A stretch of DNA of 13,143 nt, from assembly GCA_013150955.1 (NCBI GenBank), contig JAADJD010000065.1, positions 1 through 13,143 of the forward strand, written 5' to 3'. Source of the stretch: Calditrichota bacterium (GTDB taxonomy: Bacteria; Calditrichota; Calditrichia; RBG-13-44-9; J042). This document shows positions 235 to 13,143 of the stretch, piece by piece (within the stretch, counting starts at the first letter, position 1; each line of letters opens with the position of its first letter). Under the pieces are notes generated by a model, which was not told the origin of the DNA, made no database searches, and worked only from the letters and a program-made list of their open reading frames with translations. Position numbers and translations under genes: made by a program.

Positions 235-549
235 CTAAACCGCGATTCACCCAAATGAATCCATTCTCCTGGCTGAAGCCAGGAGTTAAAATTCATAACC
301 CGGATTAATCTGGGTGGACAACTCCAAAAAGTACAATAAGCGATAGGACTGTTTTAACGGTTTGTGTTGTCTAATTCACACAACGGATGATTTTTGTTTG
401 TGTTCACTCGTGTCATTCGTGGTTCAAGTATAATCGGGGCTGATCCGAGTAATTCGCCGGCGAATGCGTAATCCGGGGTTCTTGCAGTAATCCACCCCAA
501 TCCGTTTAGAAAAGAGCGCGATTAGTGGTAGTAAGGCACACTGCTGGTT
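235..549. other. Gene-free intergenic stretch with small palindromes and repeat fragments
   Basis: No credible gene. A perfect hairpin lies at 266-285: nine-base arms CTCCTGGCT and AGCCAGGAG around GA. A second near-palindrome, CCCGGATTAATCTGGG, lies at 299-314. Neither is followed by a T tract on either strand, so I do not call them terminators. Fragments of the family A right terminus (for example GTGTCATTCGTGG near 410) occur around 395-480. The 3' end of the HMG-CoA reductase gene adjoins at 550. Confidence 0.5.
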
Positions 550-2459: not shown

Positions 2460-3812
2460 ATGGCATCAACATCGCAGCGCATGTCCAATGTGGACACGGC
2501 ATGGCTCCGCATGGACGATCCCACCAATCTGATGATGATCTCCGGATTAATCCTGTTTAAAGAGCCGCTGGAAAAAGCGGATTTACGGCGAGTCATTGAA
2601 AATCGCTTGCTTAAATTCGACCGTTTTCGTCAGCGCATTGTGGGATTGGATCGCTTGTTTGGCAATCCCCGCTGGGAGGATGATCCGCATCTGGATCTGG
2701 ATTATCATATTCAGGAAATCACCCTCCCCGCCCCGGGTGATGCCACCGTTCTCCGGCACGTGGTGGGACAGTTCATGAGCCAGCCCCTGGATTTTGCCCA
2801 TCCATTATGGCAAATTCATTTGATTCGGAATTATCAGCAGGGTTGCGCCGTTCTGGTACGGATTCATCATTGTATTGCAGATGGGATTGCCCTGGTGCGC
2901 GTACTGTTGTCGTTAACAGATACCCAGGCTGATGCATCCGCCAGCACGACCCCTGCCCTTCAACACCCTTCCCGCAACAACACGGGAGGCGGATTGACCA
3001 ACGGGACTTCGGGATGGTTGCAATCCCTGAAAATGGGTGCGGTAAAACTTTACTCCCTGGCCCGATTGACCCTGCAAAAACCCGATCCTCGAACCCTGTT
3101 TAAAGGAAAGCTGGGGGTGGCAAAAATTCCCGCCTGGTCGGCCCCGCTCCCACTGGATGAGGTGAAGCAAATTGGAAAAACGCTGGGAGCCACGGTTAAC
3201 GACGTCCTCCTGAGCGTGGTCAGTGGCGCACTGCGTCAATATCTGTTGAAACGCGGGGAACAGATACCACCGGATTTAAACATTCGGGCAGCGGTGCCTT
3301 TTAATCTGCGGCCGCCGGAGGATGCCATTCGCCTGGGAAATGAGTTTGGATTGCTTTTTCTCTCCCTGCCACTCAGCATCGAGGATCCCGTGGAGCGGCT
3401 AAAGGAAGTCAAGCGGCGCTCTCTGGAATTGAAACGATCCGTACAAAGTCAGGTGGTATTTGGAGTGTTAAATCTGATTGGAATGGTACCCCGCGCCATT
3501 CAAAAGTTGGTGGTAAATTTTTTTGGCACCAAAATTACCGCCGTGATGACCAACGTACCCGGCCCTCAGCATCCCATTTATCTGGCCGGCAAAGAGGTGG
3601 AAACGATTTTATTCTGGGTGCCTCAATCCGGGCGGACAGGAATGGGGGTGAGCATTTTCAGCTACAATCACCATGTTTATATCGGTTTGGCCACCGACGC
3701 CGGCCTGGTGCCGGAGCCAGCGGAGATTATTCAGGAGCTTCATAATGAATATGATCGGTTGCGAGAGGCCACCCGGGCACAGGAGCACCTGCCGCCAGCG
3801 GAAACAGCGTGA
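2460..3812 (+). CDS. Wax ester synthase / acyl-CoA:diacylglycerol acyltransferase (WS/DGAT)
   Basis: Transfers an acyl group from acyl-CoA to a fatty alcohol or diacylglycerol, giving wax ester or triacylglycerol for storage; family members associate with the membrane or lipid droplets. The 450 residues are a normal family length. The active-site motif HHCIADG is at 136-142, preceded by PLDFAHPLW (109-117), the family's usual PLW region. TVNDVLL (245-251), the RAAVPFNLRP block (276-285), LGNEFG (292-297) and TNVPGP (364-369) mark the C-terminal WS/DGAT domain. The N-terminus SNVDTAWLRMDDPTNLMMIS is typical. The region 152-185, rich in Ser, Thr, Asn and Gly, looks like a flexible linker between halves. 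The preference for alcohol or diacylglycerol cannot be read from sequence. It is followed 43 bases after the stop by a family B repeat. Confidence 0.93.
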   Translation: MASTSQRMSNVDTAWLRMDDPTNLMMISGLILFKEPLEKADLRRVIENRLLKFDRFRQRIVGLDRLFGNPRWEDDPHLDLDYHIQEITLPAPGDATVLRHVVGQFMSQPLDFAHPLWQIHLIRNYQQGCAVLVRIHHCIADGIALVRVLLSLTDTQADASASTTPALQHPSRNNTGGGLTNGTSGWLQSLKMGAVKLYSLARLTLQKPDPRTLFKGKLGVAKIPAWSAPLPLDEVKQIGKTLGATVNDVLLSVVSGALRQYLLKRGEQIPPDLNIRAAVPFNLRPPEDAIRLGNEFGLLFLSLPLSIEDPVERLKEVKRRSLELKRSVQSQVVFGVLNLIGMVPRAIQKLVVNFFGTKITAVMTNVPGPQHPIYLAGKEVETILFWVPQSGRTGMGVSIFSYNHHVYIGLATDAGLVPEPAEIIQELHNEYDRLREATRAQEHLPPAETA

Positions 3813-3962
3813 AATGATTTTCCCGCAATGCAGAAGATGAAATGGGTATTCAGCCCCCCACGCGCTGCGTGGGGCTACCCTATTTTTGCCCTTCGGGCAA
3901 AAAACACCAGTCGGCACAGAAAAGTCATCAGCTGCCCCATTGTACCCCCATCCCCACACCCA

Positions 3963-4032
3963 AGTCCCAAATCCGCAATCCGAAATCCGACATTCGCAAT
4001 CCGACATCCGAAATCCCAAATCCGCCATCCCT
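3963..4032 (+). repeat. 7-bp tandem array, 10 units
   Basis: Ten consecutive heptamers in one phase fitting (A/C)AT(C/T)CG(A/C) with few deviations, for example AATCCGC, AATCCGA, CATTCGC, CATCCGA. Equivalent in position to the arrays at 7019-7067 (7 units) and 7744-7813 (10 units). Confidence 0.9.
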
Positions 4033-4080
4033 TCCCGCCCCGTAGGGGCAACATAGAACAGCCCGGGGCACCGCCCCTCA

Positions 4081-4115
4081 AATCCGACATCCGCAATTCG
4101 CAATCCGAAATCCAG
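4081..4115 (+). repeat. 7-bp tandem array, 5 units
   Basis: Five heptamers of the same consensus (AATCCGA, CATCCGC, AATTCGC, AATCCGA, AATCCAG), directly after a decayed CCCGGGGC hairpin. Position-equivalent to 7187-7221. Confidence 0.85.
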
Positions 4116-4433
4116 AATTGTTTCTGGTTGCCCTTCAGGCAACGAAGGGAATGATGGTGGCGCCACGTGTACCCCACGCGCTGCGTGGGGCTACCCTCTT
4201 GTTGTCCTTCGGACAACCAACGACCACAAAATCCCATAGGGGCGCCATTTGTGGCGAAAGAAATCACCCAGATGAAAAATCGCTTCCCCGTCAACCGTTA
4301 CGCCACGAAGGGGGAGATAGACCCTTCCCCATCGGGGTAAAATAGGACAGCCCGGGGCAGCGCCCCGGGAATCGGAACGCCCCACCACAAACAGATGCGC
4401 CCTGTAAGGGCACAAAAATAAAGACGCCCCCCA

Positions 4434-4517
4434 AATTCGACATTCGAAATCCGACATCCGAAATCCAACTCCCCAAATCCGACATCCGCAATCCGAAATC
4501 CGACATCCGAAATCCGA
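4434..4517 (+). repeat. 7-bp tandem array, 12 units
   Basis: Twelve heptamers in unbroken phase, including one diverged unit (CTCCCCA at 4469-4475) that still keeps the length of seven. The array at 7935-8025 has the same diverged unit at the same relative place, showing that the two share ancestry as whole arrays. Confidence 0.9.
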
Positions 4518-4662
4518 GAAAAATATTCCCCCTTGCAATGCATCCCTGAAAATTCGTATGATTTGATGGTTCATTTTCAGGTAAAGTTCCTCAGGTTTCG
4601 CCGATGACTATGATTGCCCGGTGATAGATGATAGGATCATAAATCCAAACGAGTGAAGCTCC

Positions 4663-6063
4663 ATGACCATTCAACGAAAGATCGTTTTTTATTCGTTTTT
4701 ATTCTTCACATTCCTGATCATCTACAACACCCTGATCCCCTTTCGATTCGACTACGGATTTCAGGATCTCCCCAACCTCATTCGCCAGATCGAATGGTTT
4801 CCCTATCACAGCACCCGCGTGGACATTTCGTTGACCGACATCGTGGGTAACATCCTGCTCTTTGTACCTTTTGGATTTCTGCTGTATACGCTGCTGAATC
4901 AAATGGGCATGGCTTATCCGTTCGGGCTCACGCTGCTTTGCGGTGCCGCATTAAGCTTTTCCATCGAATTCGTCCAGTTATTCATTAAAGCCCGCAACAC
5001 CGCTCCACACGATTTAATCAACAATACCCTGGGGACGGCACTGGGAGCACTGGTGGCCATGATTTATTCGATTCGATTGTCGGCGTTTCTGCGCACCCAG
5101 TTCTACTCCCTGCTGCAACGAAAGCCATTCCTGTTACTGCTCATCATCCTGGGCGGTGCCCAGGGAATGGCGGCGTTGATGCCCTTCACGGTGTCCATCA
5201 CGGTGTCCGATTTAAAAAAGAGTCTCAAGTCCACCAATCTTGTCCCTTTCGATTACGTTTCGATCGGGAAACTGTTTTTCCGCTCCCCCACTCCCCACGA
5301 TTCCCTTCCGTTTGATGTCTTTGCCTTTGTGGAAAATCTCCTGTTCTGGATGGTTATTGGATACCTGCTATTCATCTGTTACCGAATTTACTGGCGAAAG
5401 AAAACCTTTGGCAGGTGGTTGTTGATCGGACTGCCTTTAGTCTATTTCCCCTTGCTGGAATTTGCACAGCTGTTTATCACCTCACGGATCACGGATATTA
5501 ACGACATCCTGAGCGGCTACCTGGGGATTGCCCTGGGATTTGCATTGTATCAGCTCCTGCGCCCCATTCGCCGAAAACATTTTCACCATCACATCGATTT
5601 GCTACGGATCCCTCTCGTATTGTATGGGATATTCATCCTTTTTGCGGGACTCCAACCGTTTGACTGGACAACCTCCGCAGAAGTCATTCACCGCGATCTC
5701 CGCGCTGAAAACCTGATTCCCTTTTTCGCCTACTTTCGAAAAACCAGCCTGTGGAACCTGTACGATTTGCTCAATTCACTGACATATTTCCTGCCCATCA
5801 GCCTTTACTGGAGTTATCGACTGCGAGAGAAGGGGATTGGTTACTTCTCCATTTATTTGCGAACCGTTCCGGTGGGATTGGCCGTCGGGGGATTCATTGA
5901 GTTAAGCCAGATCTTTTCTCACGCCCGCATTGCCGAGATTACCGATGTTCTGGCATATGGAATGGGCGGTGCCGCCGGCACCTTTTTGATTTATTATTAC
6001 GAAACCCAGGTCAAACCCACCCTCGACGCCGTGCGCAATGGATTGCTGGAACTTTCCCATTAA
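4663..6063 (+). CDS. Multi-pass membrane protein with three VanZ-like repeats
   Basis: 466 residues, strongly hydrophobic, with roughly a dozen likely membrane helices. VanZ domains are normally single, in short proteins; the founding member gives low-level teicoplanin resistance by an unclear mechanism. Here the domain appears three times, about residues 16-137, 160-300 and 316-445. Each repeat carries the same polar signature at identical spacing: Glu, Gln at +3, Arg at +9, Asp at +15 (E102-Q105-R111-D117; E266-Q269-R275-D281; E413-Q416-R422-D428). Each is preceded by a hydrophobic helix with Asn (GNILLFVPFG, ENLLFWMVIG, NSLTYFLPIS) and by a P-F motif (IPFRF, MPFTV, QPFDW). The signature survives in all three, so each repeat is probably functional. 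The ATG at 4663 has only a weak GAGTGAAG ribosome site. It stands alone between repeat regions. Substrate unknown. Confidence 0.85.
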   Translation: MTIQRKIVFYSFLFFTFLIIYNTLIPFRFDYGFQDLPNLIRQIEWFPYHSTRVDISLTDIVGNILLFVPFGFLLYTLLNQMGMAYPFGLTLLCGAALSFSIEFVQLFIKARNTAPHDLINNTLGTALGALVAMIYSIRLSAFLRTQFYSLLQRKPFLLLLIILGGAQGMAALMPFTVSITVSDLKKSLKSTNLVPFDYVSIGKLFFRSPTPHDSLPFDVFAFVENLLFWMVIGYLLFICYRIYWRKKTFGRWLLIGLPLVYFPLLEFAQLFITSRITDINDILSGYLGIALGFALYQLLRPIRRKHFHHHIDLLRIPLVLYGIFILFAGLQPFDWTTSAEVIHRDLRAENLIPFFAYFRKTSLWNLYDLLNSLTYFLPISLYWSYRLREKGIGYFSIYLRTVPVGLAVGGFIELSQIFSHARIAEITDVLAYGMGGAAGTFLIYYYETQVKPTLDAVRNGLLELSH

Positions 6064-6194
6064 TCCGAATAAGCAGAAAACCGCGAATCACGCGGGTGAA
6101 TCCAGAACATTTCCACAAAATCGCGAATACCCCATGGAACTCATTTCCATTCAGATATCATCAAACGGATTTCATTATTTTCGTTCGCGTTAAT
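6064..6194 (-). repeat. Family A element, inverted and partial
   Basis: Begins within about 15 bases of the VanZ stop codon. It reads as the reverse complement of the family: the terminal block AACCGCGAATCACGCG comes first, then CACAAAATCGCGAAT, then the CATTCAGATATCATCAAACG block. It abuts the forward copy at 6195, giving a head-to-head junction. Confidence 0.7.
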
Positions 6195-6346
6195 CCCAGA
6201 TTATGCGATAGCCTGCGAATTACACGAATTAACACAAATAAAACCAATAAAATGCATTGGATTGTGTATGGATGAAAATGTGGTCCAGCGTTTATTCGCG
6301 ATTTTTTAGATATTTTTTGGTTTCATTCGCGTGATTCGCGATTTAA
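6195..6346 (+). repeat. Family A element, right tip missing
   Basis: Starts with CCCAGATTATGCGATAGCC and TTACACGAATTAA (left inverted repeat). It continues through GGATGAAAATG and TTTATTCGCGATTTTTTAGA, and reaches the right inverted repeat ATTCGCGTGATTCGCG before running straight into the next copy. The loss of the outer right tip suggests nesting or recombination at the shared terminus. Confidence 0.85.
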
Positions 6347-6528
6347 CCCAGATTATGCAATAGCCTACGAATTACACGAATTAAAACGAATAATAACAAT
6401 AAAATACGTTAGTTGTATCTGAATAAAAAATATTTTCGGGGATTATTCGCGATTTTGTTGATATTTTTTGGATTCATTCGTGTGATTCGTGGTTCGATGC
6501 ATTATTTGGATTTAATGCATTATTTGGG
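6347..6528 (+). repeat. Family A element, full, with duplicated right tip
   Basis: Both termini are present: CCCAGATTATGCAATAGCC on the left and TTCGTGTGATTCGTGG to TATTTGGG on the right. The right tip is tandemly duplicated: GATGCATTATTTGG followed at once by AATGCATTATTTGGG. It sits head-to-tail with the copy at 6195. Confidence 0.85.
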
Positions 6529-6595
6529 TTAATTCGTGTGATTTGTAGGACAATGTAAAACCGGGGTAAAATGGAGCATCCCGGGGAAGGATAAA

Positions 6596-6774
6596 CCCAA
6601 ATTATGCATTAACCTACAAATGACACGAATGAACACAAATAAAACCAATAAAATACTTTGGATTGTGTCTGGATGAAAATGTGTTCCGGGGTTTATTCGC
6701 GATTTTGTATTCGCGATTTTGTAGATATTTTTTGGTTTAATTCGTGTGATTCGCGGTTAAATGCACTTTTTGGG
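6596..6774 (+). repeat. Family A element, full copy, 179 bp
   Basis: The clearest complete copy. The left end CCCAAATTATGCATTAACC and the reverse complement of the right end, CCCAAAAAGTGCATTTAACC, match, and the inverted repeat extends about 38 bases with roughly three quarters identity by eye. Inside it a 14-base unit, ATTCGCGATTTTGT, is tandemly duplicated (6695-6708 and 6709-6722). There is no coding capacity. Confidence 0.88.
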
Positions 6775-7018
6775 ATAAACAACGGTTCCCTCACCTGTAG
6801 GGAGTAGGATAAGAAACAGAGGATATGGTTCAGGGAAATTTGTTCAATAACCACGTGGTGAGTATTGTAGCCCTTCAGGAAACCGGTGGTGCGTGAACCA
6901 TTCTCTGCATCCCCACGCGCTGCTTGGGGCTACCTTCTTTTTGCCCTCCGGGCAAAAAACACCAGTCGGTACAGAAAAGTCATCAGCTGCCCCATTTTGC
7001 CCCCTATCCCCACACCCA

Positions 7019-7067
7019 AGTCCCAAATCCACAATACCAAAGCCGAAATCCGAAATCCACAATCCGC
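7019..7067 (+). repeat. 7-bp tandem array, 7 units
   Basis: Seven in-phase heptamers, more degenerate than elsewhere (AATACCA, AAGCCGA), between the TTTTTGCCC and GCCCC hairpins. Three units fewer than the equivalent arrays at 3963 and 7744. Confidence 0.8.
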
Positions 7068-7186
7068 ATCCCTTCCCGCCCCGTAGGGGCACCATAAGGT
7101 AACCCGGGGCAGCGCCCCGGGAATGGGAACGATCCACCATAAAACAAATGCGCCCTGTAAGGGCACAATAATAAACAGGCCCCCCA

Positions 7187-7221
7187 AATCCGACATTCGC
7201 AATCCGCAATCCGAAATCCAA
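7187..7221 (+). repeat. 7-bp tandem array, 5 units
   Basis: Five in-phase heptamers (AATCCGA, CATTCGC, AATCCGC, AATCCGA, AATCCAA) before the GTTGCC hairpin. Confidence 0.85.
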
Positions 7222-7743
7222 AATCATTTCCGGTTGCCCTTCAGGCAACGAAGGGAATGATGGTGGCACCACCTGTACCCCACGCGCTGCGTGGGGCTAC
7301 CTTATTGTTGTCCTTCGGACAACAGGTGTACGCGGAATCTCATGTATTTCCTCAAAGGCGCCATTTTTGAAAAGGGAAATCATCGAGGTGAAAATTCATT
7401 TCTCCACTAACCGTTTCGCACGAAGGGGGAGGATAGACCATTCCCCATCGGGGTAAAATGGGACAGCCCGGGGCAGCGCCCCGGGTGAGGAATGAGCAAT
7501 CCTCCAAAGCCTCACTCGCCCTGTAGGGGCAGGACAAGAAACAAAGGATGTGGAATAGGGAAATTTATTAAATAACCACGTGGTGAGTATTGTAGCCCTT
7601 CAGGCAACCGATGGTGCATGAACTGTTCTCTGCATCCCCACGCGCTGCGTGGGGCTACCCCCTTTTTGCCCTTCGGGCAAAAAACACCAGTCGGTACAGA
7701 AAAGTCATCCGCCGCCCCATTGTGCCCCCCATCCCCACACCCA

Positions 7744-7813
7744 AGTCCCAAATCCGCAATCCGAAATCCGACATCCGAAATTCGCAATCCGAAATCCGAA
7801 ATCCACAATCCGC
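7744..7813 (+). repeat. 7-bp tandem array, 10 units
   Basis: Ten in-phase heptamers of the (A/C)AT(C/T)CG(A/C) type, position-equivalent to 3963-4032. Confidence 0.9.
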
Positions 7814-7934
7814 ATCCCTTCCCGCCCTGTAGGGGCACCATAAGGTAACCCGGGGCAGCGCCCCGGGAATCGGAACGACCCACCATAAAACAAATGCGCC
7901 CTGTAAGGGCACAATAATAAACAAGCGCCCCCCA

Positions 7935-8025
7935 AATCCGACATTCGAAATCCGAAATCCGAAATTCAACTCCCCAAATCCGACATCCGCAATCCGACAT
8001 CCGAAATCCGCAATCCCAAATCCAT
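7935..8025 (+). repeat. 7-bp tandem array, 13 units
   Basis: The longest array: thirteen heptamers in unbroken phase, with the same diverged CTCCCCA unit (7970-7976) as the array at 4434. It lies just beyond the beta-gamma stop codon, so transcripts of that operon would read into it. Confidence 0.9.
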
Positions 8026-8034
8026 CCCCAGGCT

Positions 8035-9297
8035 TCATCCCACGGGAGAAAGCTGCTGCCCCTTTGCGATCGCCGCCTCCAGTGCAGCGGCATATTTTCG
8101 ATTGCGAGAGACAAGGCGCAACGCCTCCAGCGGAAACCATTCTTCCTGTTGCAACCAGAACGCAATGGCTGCCAGCGCTGCACTGCGTCCCCCAACGGCA
8201 CCACGAAAATCCACCCGTACCATGGGCTGTTTTTTATCCACCGCCAGACTTTCATCAACAATCAGTCGCGTGGATGCGGAGAGTCGCGATTGAATTTTAT
8301 TCCATCCATCCGCGGATACCACAATGGCCACATCAGGAGTTTCAATACCGGTGTAATGAATGGGAGTGGGCGATAAAATCACCTCCGCCACCGAAAAGCC
8401 GGTGCCCACGGTAATGGGATACTCTCCTTTTTTGGTGCTGTATAACCCGGCAGCCATAGCGGCACTGGCCAGCAGTTCGCCAGCAGATTGAATTCCCTCA
8501 CCAGCAGACCCGGCGATCAGCACATGCAGTCGCTGTTCCAATCGATGGTTAAATTGCACCGGGATCGCGGTTATTGACTCCAGTAACGAGGCTTTCTGCT
8601 GAAATTGAACCCGTCGGATCGGCCGCGTCTGGCGTAACACCACTTCCGGATACGGCATGACCTCCTTTAATTCCTTCACCTTCCGAATCCCATAAGATGG
8701 GCACATCTCCACGATTTCCACCAGGGAAAATCCAGGCGTCTCTACCGCTTCACGAAGCACCTCTTTTACGCCAGCCCCCACGACCACCCGCGCACTAAAC
8801 ACGGCTCCTGCAGTATGTGCCAGCTGAACCAGATCAAACGCCGGTACCTGTTCCTCTTCGGGTAATCGATCCTGTTTCAGAGACTCCGGTGTCAGTCCAC
8901 TGACCTGTCCCCCGGTCATGCCGTACACCATATTATCCTGAACAATCACCGTCATATCCACATTTTGCCGGGCCGCCTCCAGGATGTGCTGTAATCCAAT
9001 GGTCGCCCCTCCGTCGCCCAATACCACAATGACCTTTTTACTGGGATTTTGCAGGCCCAGTGAAATCCCCACCGCCAACGCGGTAGAGCGCCCGTGCAAT
9101 CCATGAACCGTATGGCACCCCAAAACACCATCGACCAGGCCACAACAACCGATGTCGCTAACCACGATCACATCCAATGGGGAAATTCCCAACTCTCGAA
9201 CCACCTGATCCAGTTGCTTATTTACCACGGTATGGCCACATCCTGGACAATAAGGCATGGGCCGTTCCAGTAATATGCCACTTTCTACTGTTGCCAT
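8035..9297 (-). CDS. korB: 2-oxoacid:ferredoxin oxidoreductase, fused beta and gamma subunits
   Basis: Partner of the alpha subunit upstream; the family splits a 2-oxoacid oxidatively to acyl-CoA and CO2, reducing ferredoxin, and can run in reverse. Residues 1-235 are the beta subunit: CPGCGH (17-22), SDIGCCG (48-53) and EMCP (197-200) supply Cys17, Cys20, Cys51 and Cys199, the four expected ligands of a 4Fe-4S cluster. GDGG (94-97) to DNMVYGMTGGQ (121-131) is the thiamine diphosphate site. Residues 256-415 are a gamma domain, starting AGSAGEGIQSAGELLA. Beta and gamma are usually separate, or gamma is joined to alpha, so this arrangement is uncommon. The start has a strong AGGAGGTGG site four bases upstream and overlaps the alpha gene by 13 bases. 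Substrate (2-oxoglutarate or another 2-oxoacid) is not certain. No ferredoxin-like delta subunit is present. Confidence 0.9.
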   Translation of the reverse strand: MATVESGILLERPMPYCPGCGHTVVNKQLDQVVRELGISPLDVIVVSDIGCCGLVDGVLGCHTVHGLHGRSTALAVGISLGLQNPSKKVIVVLGDGGATIGLQHILEAARQNVDMTVIVQDNMVYGMTGGQVSGLTPESLKQDRLPEEEQVPAFDLVQLAHTAGAVFSARVVVGAGVKEVLREAVETPGFSLVEIVEMCPSYGIRKVKELKEVMPYPEVVLRQTRPIRRVQFQQKASLLESITAIPVQFNHRLEQRLHVLIAGSAGEGIQSAGELLASAAMAAGLYSTKKGEYPITVGTGFSVAEVILSPTPIHYTGIETPDVAIVVSADGWNKIQSRLSASTRLIVDESLAVDKKQPMVRVDFRGAVGGRSAALAAIAFWLQQEEWFPLEALRLVSRNRKYAAALEAAIAKGQQLSPVG

Positions 9298-11059: not shown

Positions 11060-11161
11060 TACCAGATTATGTTTCGTCCACGAATGGAGCGAATGCATCC
11101 AAAAGATTGTGAATAAACTCCGAAACACATTTTTATCCAGATATAATCAAACGGATTTTAT
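11060..11161 (-). repeat. Family A element, inverted and partial
   Basis: Begins at the base after the stop codon of the 182-residue gene. It carries the reverse-complement blocks CACATTTTTATCCAGATATA and CAAACGGATTTTAT and then abuts the full inverted copy at 11162. Its terminal part is heavily decayed. Confidence 0.6.
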
Positions 11162-11325
11162 CCCAAATATTGCATTAAACCGCGAATTACACGAATGAAT
11201 CCAAAAATATCTACAAAATCGCTAATCAACCACAAAACACATTTTCATCCAGATATCATCCAATGGATTTAATTATTTTTATTCGTTTTAATTCGTGTAA
11301 TTCGTAGGCTATTGAATAATCTTGG
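11162..11325 (-). repeat. Family A element, full inverted copy
   Basis: Starts CCCAAATATTGCATTAAACC and ends in the reverse complement of the family's left end (TTACACGAATTAAAACGAAT on the minus strand). Both termini are present, about 164 bp. It is opposite in orientation to the cluster at 6195-6774, so the two clusters bracket the operon as large inverted repeats about 4.5 kb apart. Confidence 0.82.
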
Positions 11326-11389
11326 TTTATTATTTTTGTTCGTGGGAATTGTGTCATTCGTAGGCGAATGCTTAATCCTGGATCATTAC
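11326..11389. repeat. Family A right-terminus fragment in the secernin gene leader
   Basis: TTGTTCGTGG, GTGTCATTCGTAGG and GCTTAATCCTGG resemble the family's right inverted repeat. It ends right before the ribosome site of the next gene, so that gene's leader, and possibly its promoter, is repeat-derived. A similar fragment occurs near 395-480. Confidence 0.5.
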
Positions 11390-11395
11390 AGGAGG
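11390..11395 (+). promoter_or_regulatory. Ribosome binding site deciding the secernin start
   Basis: A strong AGGAGG lies six bases before ATG 11402. It excludes the upstream in-frame TTG at 11312, which would place repeat sequence in the protein and bury the catalytic N-terminal cysteine. Confidence 0.85.
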
Positions 11396-12727: not shown

Positions 12728-12869
12728 AATAGGAATGGGCATTGGGTCGTTAATCATGAACTCCTGTCGATGTTCTTCATACCCCGATGGGCTTCATCTG
12801 CAACAAAATGCTTTATGGGAAAAATGTTCCCCCGAATACTGAATGGGAATTCGCTTGCGTCTAAATAAA

Positions 12870-12909
12870 CCCAAATTTTGCATTAGAACACGAATGACAC
12901 GCATTAAAA
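12870..12909 (+). repeat. Family A solo left terminus
   Basis: CCCAAATTTTGCATTAGAAC and CGAATGACACGCATTAA match the left inverted repeat only. It is followed within a few bases by a full copy, a second example of nesting at termini. Confidence 0.7.
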
Positions 12910-12915
12910 AATAAA

Positions 12916-13081
12916 CCCAGATTAAGCATTAGAATCACGAATTTCACGAATTAACACCAATAAAAATAATAAAATGCACTTGATTCTATCTGGATGAAAA
13001 TGCTTTCCCGGATATATTCGCTATTTTATTGATTATTTTAGAATTCATCCACGTGATTCGTGGTTTCATGCATTATTCAGG
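12916..13081 (+). repeat. Family A element, full copy
   Basis: Left end CCCAGATTAAGCATTAGAA, internal TTGATTCTATCTGGATGAAA, right end CACGTGATTCGTGG to GCATTATTCAGG; about 166 bp. Closest to the copy at 117-234. Confidence 0.85.
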
Positions 13082-13143
13082 ATAAAATATGCGTAAAATA
13101 TTGATGTTCTTGTTCTATTCGCGATGACCTTTTTATCCCAGAT

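Follow-up and report, generated by a model that had tools for sequence, protein, structure and literature searches.

Among known mobile elements, those closest to the hairpins studied here are the REP sequences and their RAYT transposases, together called REPtrons (PMC3733652, PMC6006769, PMC8266576). RAYTs belong to the HuH/Y1 transposases, which act on folded single-stranded DNA (PMC6006769, PMC8266576). Subclass 1.2 of the TnpA_Y1 family has been reported as lacking REP sequences (Quentin 2018, PMC6006769). For group 3 TnpA_REP, the hairpin loop is known to matter, being GCT in S. maltophilia and TTTA with a T-A pair in Marinomonas (PMC8266576). A further motif, Acido-Lenti-1 (Rfam RF01687), was rated "probably" RNA and not cis-regulatory (Weinberg 2010, PMC2864571). 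Like REPs, our elements are short perfect palindromes with loops of 2 to 4 nt and a 5' YAG/GTAG foot; they are dispersed, cluster in inverted pairs, flank a Y1 transposase gene and are largely private to one genome. They differ from REPs in having a second, small hairpin 17 nt upstream, in a foot looser than GT[AG]G and in their transposase, which is of class 1 (Y---Q--HH) instead of class 2 (Y---NP). Two REP criteria are met (a dispersed multi-copy palindrome that flanks a tnpA_Y1 gene) and two defining ones are not (a class 2 transposase and a single-hairpin unit), and we therefore consider the system REP/RAYT-like but not a plain REP system.

The window, that is, the whole stretch of 13,143 nt that was analyzed, is one entire contig (C26) of the 4.07-Mb genome of a Calditrichota bacterium (G000). 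The original prediction stated that the hairpins in its arrays close almost exclusively on three-base loops. The hairpins are indeed present at the positions given. Counting perfect stems of at least 6 bp in the two arrays (3830-4440 and 6780-8039), we found loops of 3, 4, 5, 6, 7 and 8 nt in 13, 1, 2, 0, 2 and 0 cases, compared to means of 0.55, 0.54, 0.40, 0.43, 0.44 and 0.43 in Markov shuffles. None of the 500 shuffles contained more than four 3-nt-loop hairpins. The same held in 2.64 Mb of the source genome, where 8-bp stems with 3-nt loops numbered 168 versus 39.5 expected and the excess at other loop lengths was far smaller. The predicted preference was thus borne out at both scales, with just five other loops in the window arrays. 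Two hairpins in the window are exceptions: GTTGCC-CTTCA-GGCAAC (4127-4143) has a 5-nt loop by strict pairing, which becomes a 3-nt loop only when a minus-strand T.G pair is counted, and in the first copy three of the eight pairs of the CCCGGGGC hairpin (4062-4080) are gone.

The same hairpins had been read as seven types with different stems. These are not independent: the ten hairpin pairs in the window are copies of one fixed two-hairpin module, accompanied by lone small hairpins, and their pairing at a fixed spacing rules out seven independent types. The module is 44 nt long. On the strand bearing the GTAG, it consists of a small hairpin with a GNA loop, then 17 nt from the end of this loop to the big stem, and then a big hairpin with an 8-bp stem and a 3-nt loop. 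The small stem measures 5 to 9 bp and its 3-nt loop, mostly GNA, is GAA, GTA, GCA or GGA, rarely others. The 17 nt comprise the small 3' arm and a linker ending in (G/A/T)(T/C)AG or GTAA, so that a longer small stem comes with a shorter linker and the sum stays at 17. In the window, type 1 modules on the minus strand alternate with type 2 modules on the plus strand (Table 1).

Table 1. Two-hairpin modules, lone hairpins and other repeats in the window. Stems and loops are written on the strand given, as 5' arm-loop-3' arm.
Feature	Positions	Strand	Small hairpin	Linker end	Big hairpin	Remarks
Type 1 module	3856-3903	-	TTTTTGCCC-GAA-GGGCAAAAA	GGTAG	CCCCACGC-AGC-GCGTGGGG	
Type 2 module	4037-4080	+	GCCCC-GTA-GGGGC	CAG	CCCGGGGC-ACC-GCCCCTCA	Big-stem 3' arm decayed, 5/8 pairs; RF01687 match at 4036-4067
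Lone small hairpin	4127-4143	-	GTTGCCT-GAA-GGGCAAC			One T.G pair
Type 1 module	4172-4217	-	GTTGTCC-GAA-GGACAAC	GGTAG	CCCCACGC-AGC-GCGTGGGG	
Type 2 module	4326-4369	+	CCCC-ATC-GGGG	CAG	CCCGGGGC-AGC-GCCCCGGG	
Lone small hairpin	4399-4411	+	GCCCT-GTA-AGGGC			
Type 1 module	6911-6958	-	Loop GGA (plus strand TCC)			Big stem 7/8 pairs
Type 2 module	7078-7121	+	GCCCC-GTA-GGGGC	GGTAA	CCCGGGGC-AGC-GCCCCGGG	RF01687 32.3 bits, E 3.6e-4, minus strand
Type 1 module	7278-7324	-	TGTTGTCC-GAA-GGACAACA	GGTAG	CCCCACGC-AGC-GCGTGGGG	
Type 2 module	7442-7485	+	CCCC-ATC-GGGG	CAG	CCCGGGGC-AGC-GCCCCGGG	
Type 1 module	7636-7683	-	TTTTTGCCC-GAA-GGGCAAAAA	GGTAG	CCCCACGC-AGC-GCGTGGGG	
Type 2 module	7824-7867	+	GCCCT-GTA-GGGGC	GGTAA	CCCGGGGC-AGC-GCCCCGGG	RF01687 30.6 bits, minus strand
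Tandem heptamers	3959-4032, 4434-4520, 7018-7066, 7741-7815, 7936-8020					AATCCGA, AATCCGC, ACATCCG
Other two-hairpin element	266-320					CTCCTGGCT-GA-AGCCAGGAG, 14-nt linker, CCCGGATTAATCTGGG
AT-rich dispersed repeats	4-118, 126-240, 6191-6780, 11092-11390, 12865-13087					"attcgcgtgattcgcggtttaa"

The window holds further repeats. Every array has the tandem heptamers, both in between its modules and next to them, a different two-hairpin element is found near the start, and a separate AT-rich dispersed family fills most of the other intergenic gaps. A VanZ homologue is present in a genome of the same genus (G001:C59, 78% identity).

C-GNA-G loops, which the original prediction had recognized, are very stable in DNA, and a literature on the GCGAAGC mini-hairpin exists. 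They fit the small hairpin only, and in other phyla AAA or AAC loops are used as well. The prediction had also pointed to one copy (6938-6958) in which only the loop changes, from TTC to TCC, with the stem intact. This change is real, but an uncompensated change in the partner 8-bp stem (6911-6929) had been missed, and the copy is thus weak evidence of selection.

The 17-nt register is a property of the whole genome. In the 2.64 Mb of sequence, 79 pairs of hairpins with 3-nt loops were spaced by 17 nt and no more than five by any other distance of 30 nt or less; neighbouring units joined to each other account for another, wider group at 33 to 39 nt. Of 89 big hairpins of this genome that we picked without regard to the small hairpin, 68 had one at spacing 17, and none had one at 6 to 16 or 18 to 24. 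The foot was less constrained: GTAG was the commonest (41/414), with TTAG, ATAG, GCAG and GTAA also occurring, so it is not strictly GT[AG]G. Other hairpins are repeated in the same sequence, namely 43 two-base-loop pairs at spacing 33 to 34, which, like the two-hairpin element at 266-320 of the window, look related to the module yet distinct from it, 11 copies of CGTCCCGC-AAA-GCGGGACG with a CGGT foot, resembling the CGTC-tagged REPs without known transposase, and 48 occurrences of CCGACTC-TCCA-GAGTCGG. Long open reading frames contained 34 of 98 modules, compared to 81% of the genome; since the repeats themselves generate false reading frames, this count was not taken as proof.

Arrays of this kind could be bidirectional transcription terminators or mRNA 3'-end stabilizers, kept for gene expression. 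Indeed, TTTTTGCCC-GAA-GGGCAAAAA resembles a bidirectional terminator, and the arrays lie downstream of genes (the WS/DGAT gene ends at 3812, and the second array occupies a convergent gap, 6063-8035). However, terminator-like sites between 3700 and 8100 were not in excess (9 versus 6.4 ± 2.3 in shuffles), and in most modules the big hairpin is not followed by a T-tract. As tandem arrays of four to six modules and the association with a transposase described below would also remain unexplained, we consider this function very unlikely as the reason for the arrays, although termination could be a secondary effect.

The source genome encodes two Y1 transposases, on contigs C35 and C13, and its densest module array encloses the first of them (C35:4810-5259). 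The C35 gene is present in a single copy, and its product of 150 aa matches Y1_Tnp with 89.7 bits. It carries the motifs DHVH, WQ and YVQNQEQHH (Y---Q--HH) and a C-terminal tail. These motifs and the length identify it as a TnpA_Y1 of subclass 1.2, an HuH enzyme with a single catalytic tyrosine; members of this subclass share DH[IV]H, WQ, Y---Q--HH, a size of about 148 to 150 aa, the C-terminal tail and a low copy number (PMC6006769). While the subclass is said to have no REP, a likely cognate element is identified here beside its genes. The C13 protein is a classical RAYT (NCBIfam REP_Tyr_transpos, 71 bits, slightly short of the curated cut-off, 80), and canonical single-hairpin REPs with a GGTAG foot and a TTTAC loop lie on either side of it. 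In the sequence examined from this genome, none of the 116 oriented sites of 58 canonical REP hairpins had a small hairpin at spacing 17, so that the classical RAYT with its REPs provides an internal control within the same genome. A viral origin was also considered, and no homologue could be confirmed in viral contigs.

The C35 protein also matches NCBIfam transpos_IS200, and the gene is flanked by hairpins, which raises the question of whether the modules are no more than the left and right termini of a conventional IS200/IS605 insertion sequence and of degenerate copies of it. The two groups are related in sequence (IS608 TnpA, PDB 2a6m; ISDra2, PDB 2vhg; E about 2e-5) and have recognition of single-stranded DNA hairpins in common. 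The Y---Q--HH motif and the C-terminal tail, however, point to subclass 1.2 and not 1.1. An ordinary insertion sequence would require several near-identical transposase copies, and here one gene copy stands against dozens of modules, with no multi-copy insertion sequence of this type in the genome. The end hairpins of IS200/IS605 elements are subterminal and lie on one strand, whereas the modules face each other as inverted repeats. Taken together, these data make it quite unlikely that the modules are insertion sequence ends.

To follow the association outside the source genome, we used transposase homologues found in 37 of 60 genomes, the source genome included (E ≤ 0.001), and 22 further loci from named species of Verrucomicrobia, Planctomycetes, Hydrogenedentes, Thermoflexales and Desulfococcaceae. 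Nearly all homologues have Y---Q--HH. The same module, with different stems, flanks the genes in Verrucomicrobia, Planctomycetes, Hydrogenedentes, Thermoflexales and Bacteroidota. On both strands of the flanks of around 50 homologues, we counted 57 modules with 3-nt loops in both hairpins, compared to 0.3 expected. When the small hairpin and YAG alone served as anchor, without use of the big hairpin in the selection, a big hairpin followed at spacing 17 in 48 of 96 cases and in at most two at each of 13 control spacings (11 to 24). The foot in these genomes was NYAG. Modules were found close to the gene (27 within 500 bp, one at 500 to 1000 bp and none in the 62 kb beyond), often facing inward from both sides.

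By strict criteria, about half of the transposase loci had no module, and a whole clade (L186, L187, L189, L192, L193, L196, L199 and L201) lacked a recognizable one; some flanks in this clade carry hairpins with GTA or 4-nt loops instead. At locus L179, a variant module with an 11-bp stem and a 7-nt loop (CCCAGGGTTCG-GCGGAGA-CGAACCCTGGG) lies next to a subclass 1.2 gene and keeps the 17-nt spacing. A Hydrogenedentota genome has two tandem subclass 1.2 genes (L214, 2764-4203) with repeated flanking hairpins. No module was found at the locus of the Bernardetia plasmid homologue (L234); the tnpA flanks there (4880-4990 and 5490-5570) contain repeats of GCAGCTAYGCAGCT with TTTGTAGAAATTGAATT, possibly a different recognition repeat.

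Type 2 modules are matched, on the opposite strand, by the RF01687 covariance model. Its consensus, an 8-bp hairpin, CUA, a 12-nt linker and a 5-bp hairpin with a UUC loop, is the module in reverse. Window copies score 24 to 32 bits, below the gathering score of 37, which other copies in the source genome exceed (C11:78996-79040, 40.7 bits, and others). Matches above the gathering score also flank subclass 1.2 genes at seven loci (L181, L184, L185, L206, L211, L212 and L219). In Persicobacter, a match of 35.7 bits is located some 75 bp upstream of the gene, with a mirror-image hairpin pair downstream; as this locus is on a finished plasmid, it is no binning artefact. Among 59 relatives, five or more RF01687 copies were present in 13 of 27 genomes with the gene (E ≤ 1e-20) and in none of 32 without it (Fisher 5e-6, an optimistic value given the shared ancestry of the genomes). 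In a second phylum, the corresponding numbers were 3 of 6 and 2 of 72 (p = 0.0025), and one match lay 52 bp away from the gene. Some gene-less genomes have one to four matches (G002, G003, G025 and G057).

Acido-Lenti-1 is listed in Rfam as an sRNA of unknown function from Acidobacteria and Lentisphaerae, while the module appears as a DNA element by a transposase. It remains possible that the modules encode a non-coding RNA, acting in trans or in cis, which the transposase merely spreads or neighbours. The covariance model does match successive modules, in line with the original rating (PMC2864571). On the other hand, one genome has 65 matches and its relatives up to 34, arranged as inverted pairs across both strands; their copy number goes with the transposase, and modules hug the gene in both orientations. 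Wobble pairs gave a further hint, as G.T pairs favoured the strand opposite to that of Rfam (33 G.T versus 19 A.C), but with p = 0.07 and copies that are not independent this is only suggestive. The inverted placement, the copy number and the transposase link argue against RNA as the primary function, which we regard as unlikely, although no expression data exclude an RNA. In the papers examined that mention the motif, including its main-text entry in PMC2864571, we found no link of Acido-Lenti-1 to a transposase.

Compensatory changes in the stems had been proposed as a check on structural selection. We gathered 98 distinct 44-mers from the source genome by a sequence-only profile search and found 94.9% of big-stem positions paired, compared to at most 54% when one arm was slid. 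The profile seed was chosen for perfect stems, which biases the 94.9% upward; the sliding control and the existence of differing stem families are unaffected. Six fully paired multi-copy stems (CCCCACGC, CCCGGGGC, CCAGGGGT, CCCGGAGC, CCAGGGGC and CCCGGTGC, with 31, 14, 9, 5, 4 and 3 distinct elements, respectively) imply compensatory changes at five of the eight pairs. Multi-copy stems were perfectly paired in six of nine types and 66 of 72 elements, whereas 25 of 26 single-copy variants had a mismatch. The check thus gave a mixed though informative outcome: multi-copy stems are mostly intact and single copies decay without compensation. These two patterns suggest that foldability is selected among spreading copies and that decay comes later; as far as sequences can tell, the geometry appears to be kept in this way and not by selection at each site.

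Stems are mostly private to one genome or common to genomes whose own gene has that stem. The hairpin CCCCACGC-NNN-GCGTGGGG occurs 50 times in the source genome and not at all in 59 others, the CCGTGGGC stem is present in 1 of 16 genomes, and CACAGGGC was found only in two, each with its own gene flanked by CACAGGGC. The CCCAGGGC stem, used in many genomes, is an exception. These data bear on whether the geometry was merely inherited in one recent burst of near-identical copies, without structural selection. The window copies are 80 to 94% alike and the single-copy variants have changed uncompensated, as a burst would predict. However, six different fully paired multi-copy stems coexist in one genome, other phyla have unrelated stems of the same lengths and spacing, and the loop class is tied to the transposase tree. 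Inheritance alone is contradicted by these cross-genome comparisons and is, in our opinion, barely tenable.

The loop of the big hairpin follows the enzyme. Close homologues of the C35 transposase are accompanied by an 8-bp stem and a 3-nt loop, and more distant ones by a 9-bp stem that closes on two bases as T-NN-A (TTTA, TTCA). Mapped onto the protein tree, the loop class requires two changes, compared to 4 to 11 in 300 label shuffles. The tree was built quickly, many of its branches are weak, and locus L175 does not fit; L205 was excluded from the test, as its labelled hairpin looks like the small one, and loops were labelled by a strict criterion, a looser one having given spurious cases. 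Both loop types have precedents, the GCT of S. maltophilia REPs, which is needed for cleavage, and the TTTA of Marinomonas REPs.

What was observed directly is the architecture with its fixed spacing, the link to the gene in several phyla, the covariation, a loop class matching the tree and the RF01687 match. On these grounds we propose, with a probability of roughly 0.8, that the module is a bipartite, REP-like single-stranded DNA recognition element of TnpA_Y1 subclass 1.2; binding, the strand used, cleavage and mobilization are inferred, in the absence of any biochemistry. The suggestion that the structure counts, perhaps in single-stranded DNA, is supported by two findings: from one subfamily or genome to the next, the stems have entirely different sequences but the same stem length, loop length and spacing, and the elements adjoin and track a HuH/Y1 class acting on folded single-stranded DNA. 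Whether DNA or RNA is the active molecule is not shown by these data. We hypothesize that both hairpins would fold in a single-stranded state, e.g., on the lagging-strand template, and that a TnpA dimer would bind the big hairpin at the stem and at the short loop. The choice of the cleavage site may then be guided by the YAG foot, like by GTAG in REPs, with the small hairpin at its fixed distance as a second required contact. The enzyme would copy or move inverted module pairs in trans, only properly folded copies would multiply, and fixed copies would decay later.

We did not find this pairing of an element with its likely enzyme in the literature examined, and the reclassification of RF01687 is probable. 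It is likely, overall, that a two-hairpin module in a rigid 17-nt register is recognized by a Y1 class thought to have no recognition sequence, that its loop type co-evolves with the enzyme and that Acido-Lenti-1 is a DNA element instead of an RNA. For an orphan subclass of Y1 transposases this provides a likely partner, and for REP elements a bipartite form. Annotations of "ncRNAs" still rely on this Rfam family, as do guesses at gene regulation, e.g., beside the Tannerella KLIKK proteases (PMC13298647), and the finding offers an explanation of the family in terms of DNA. Finally, many genomes supply transposase/element pairs, every pair having a stem of its own and either of the two loop types, and with them the co-evolution of enzyme and hairpin becomes directly testable in vitro.
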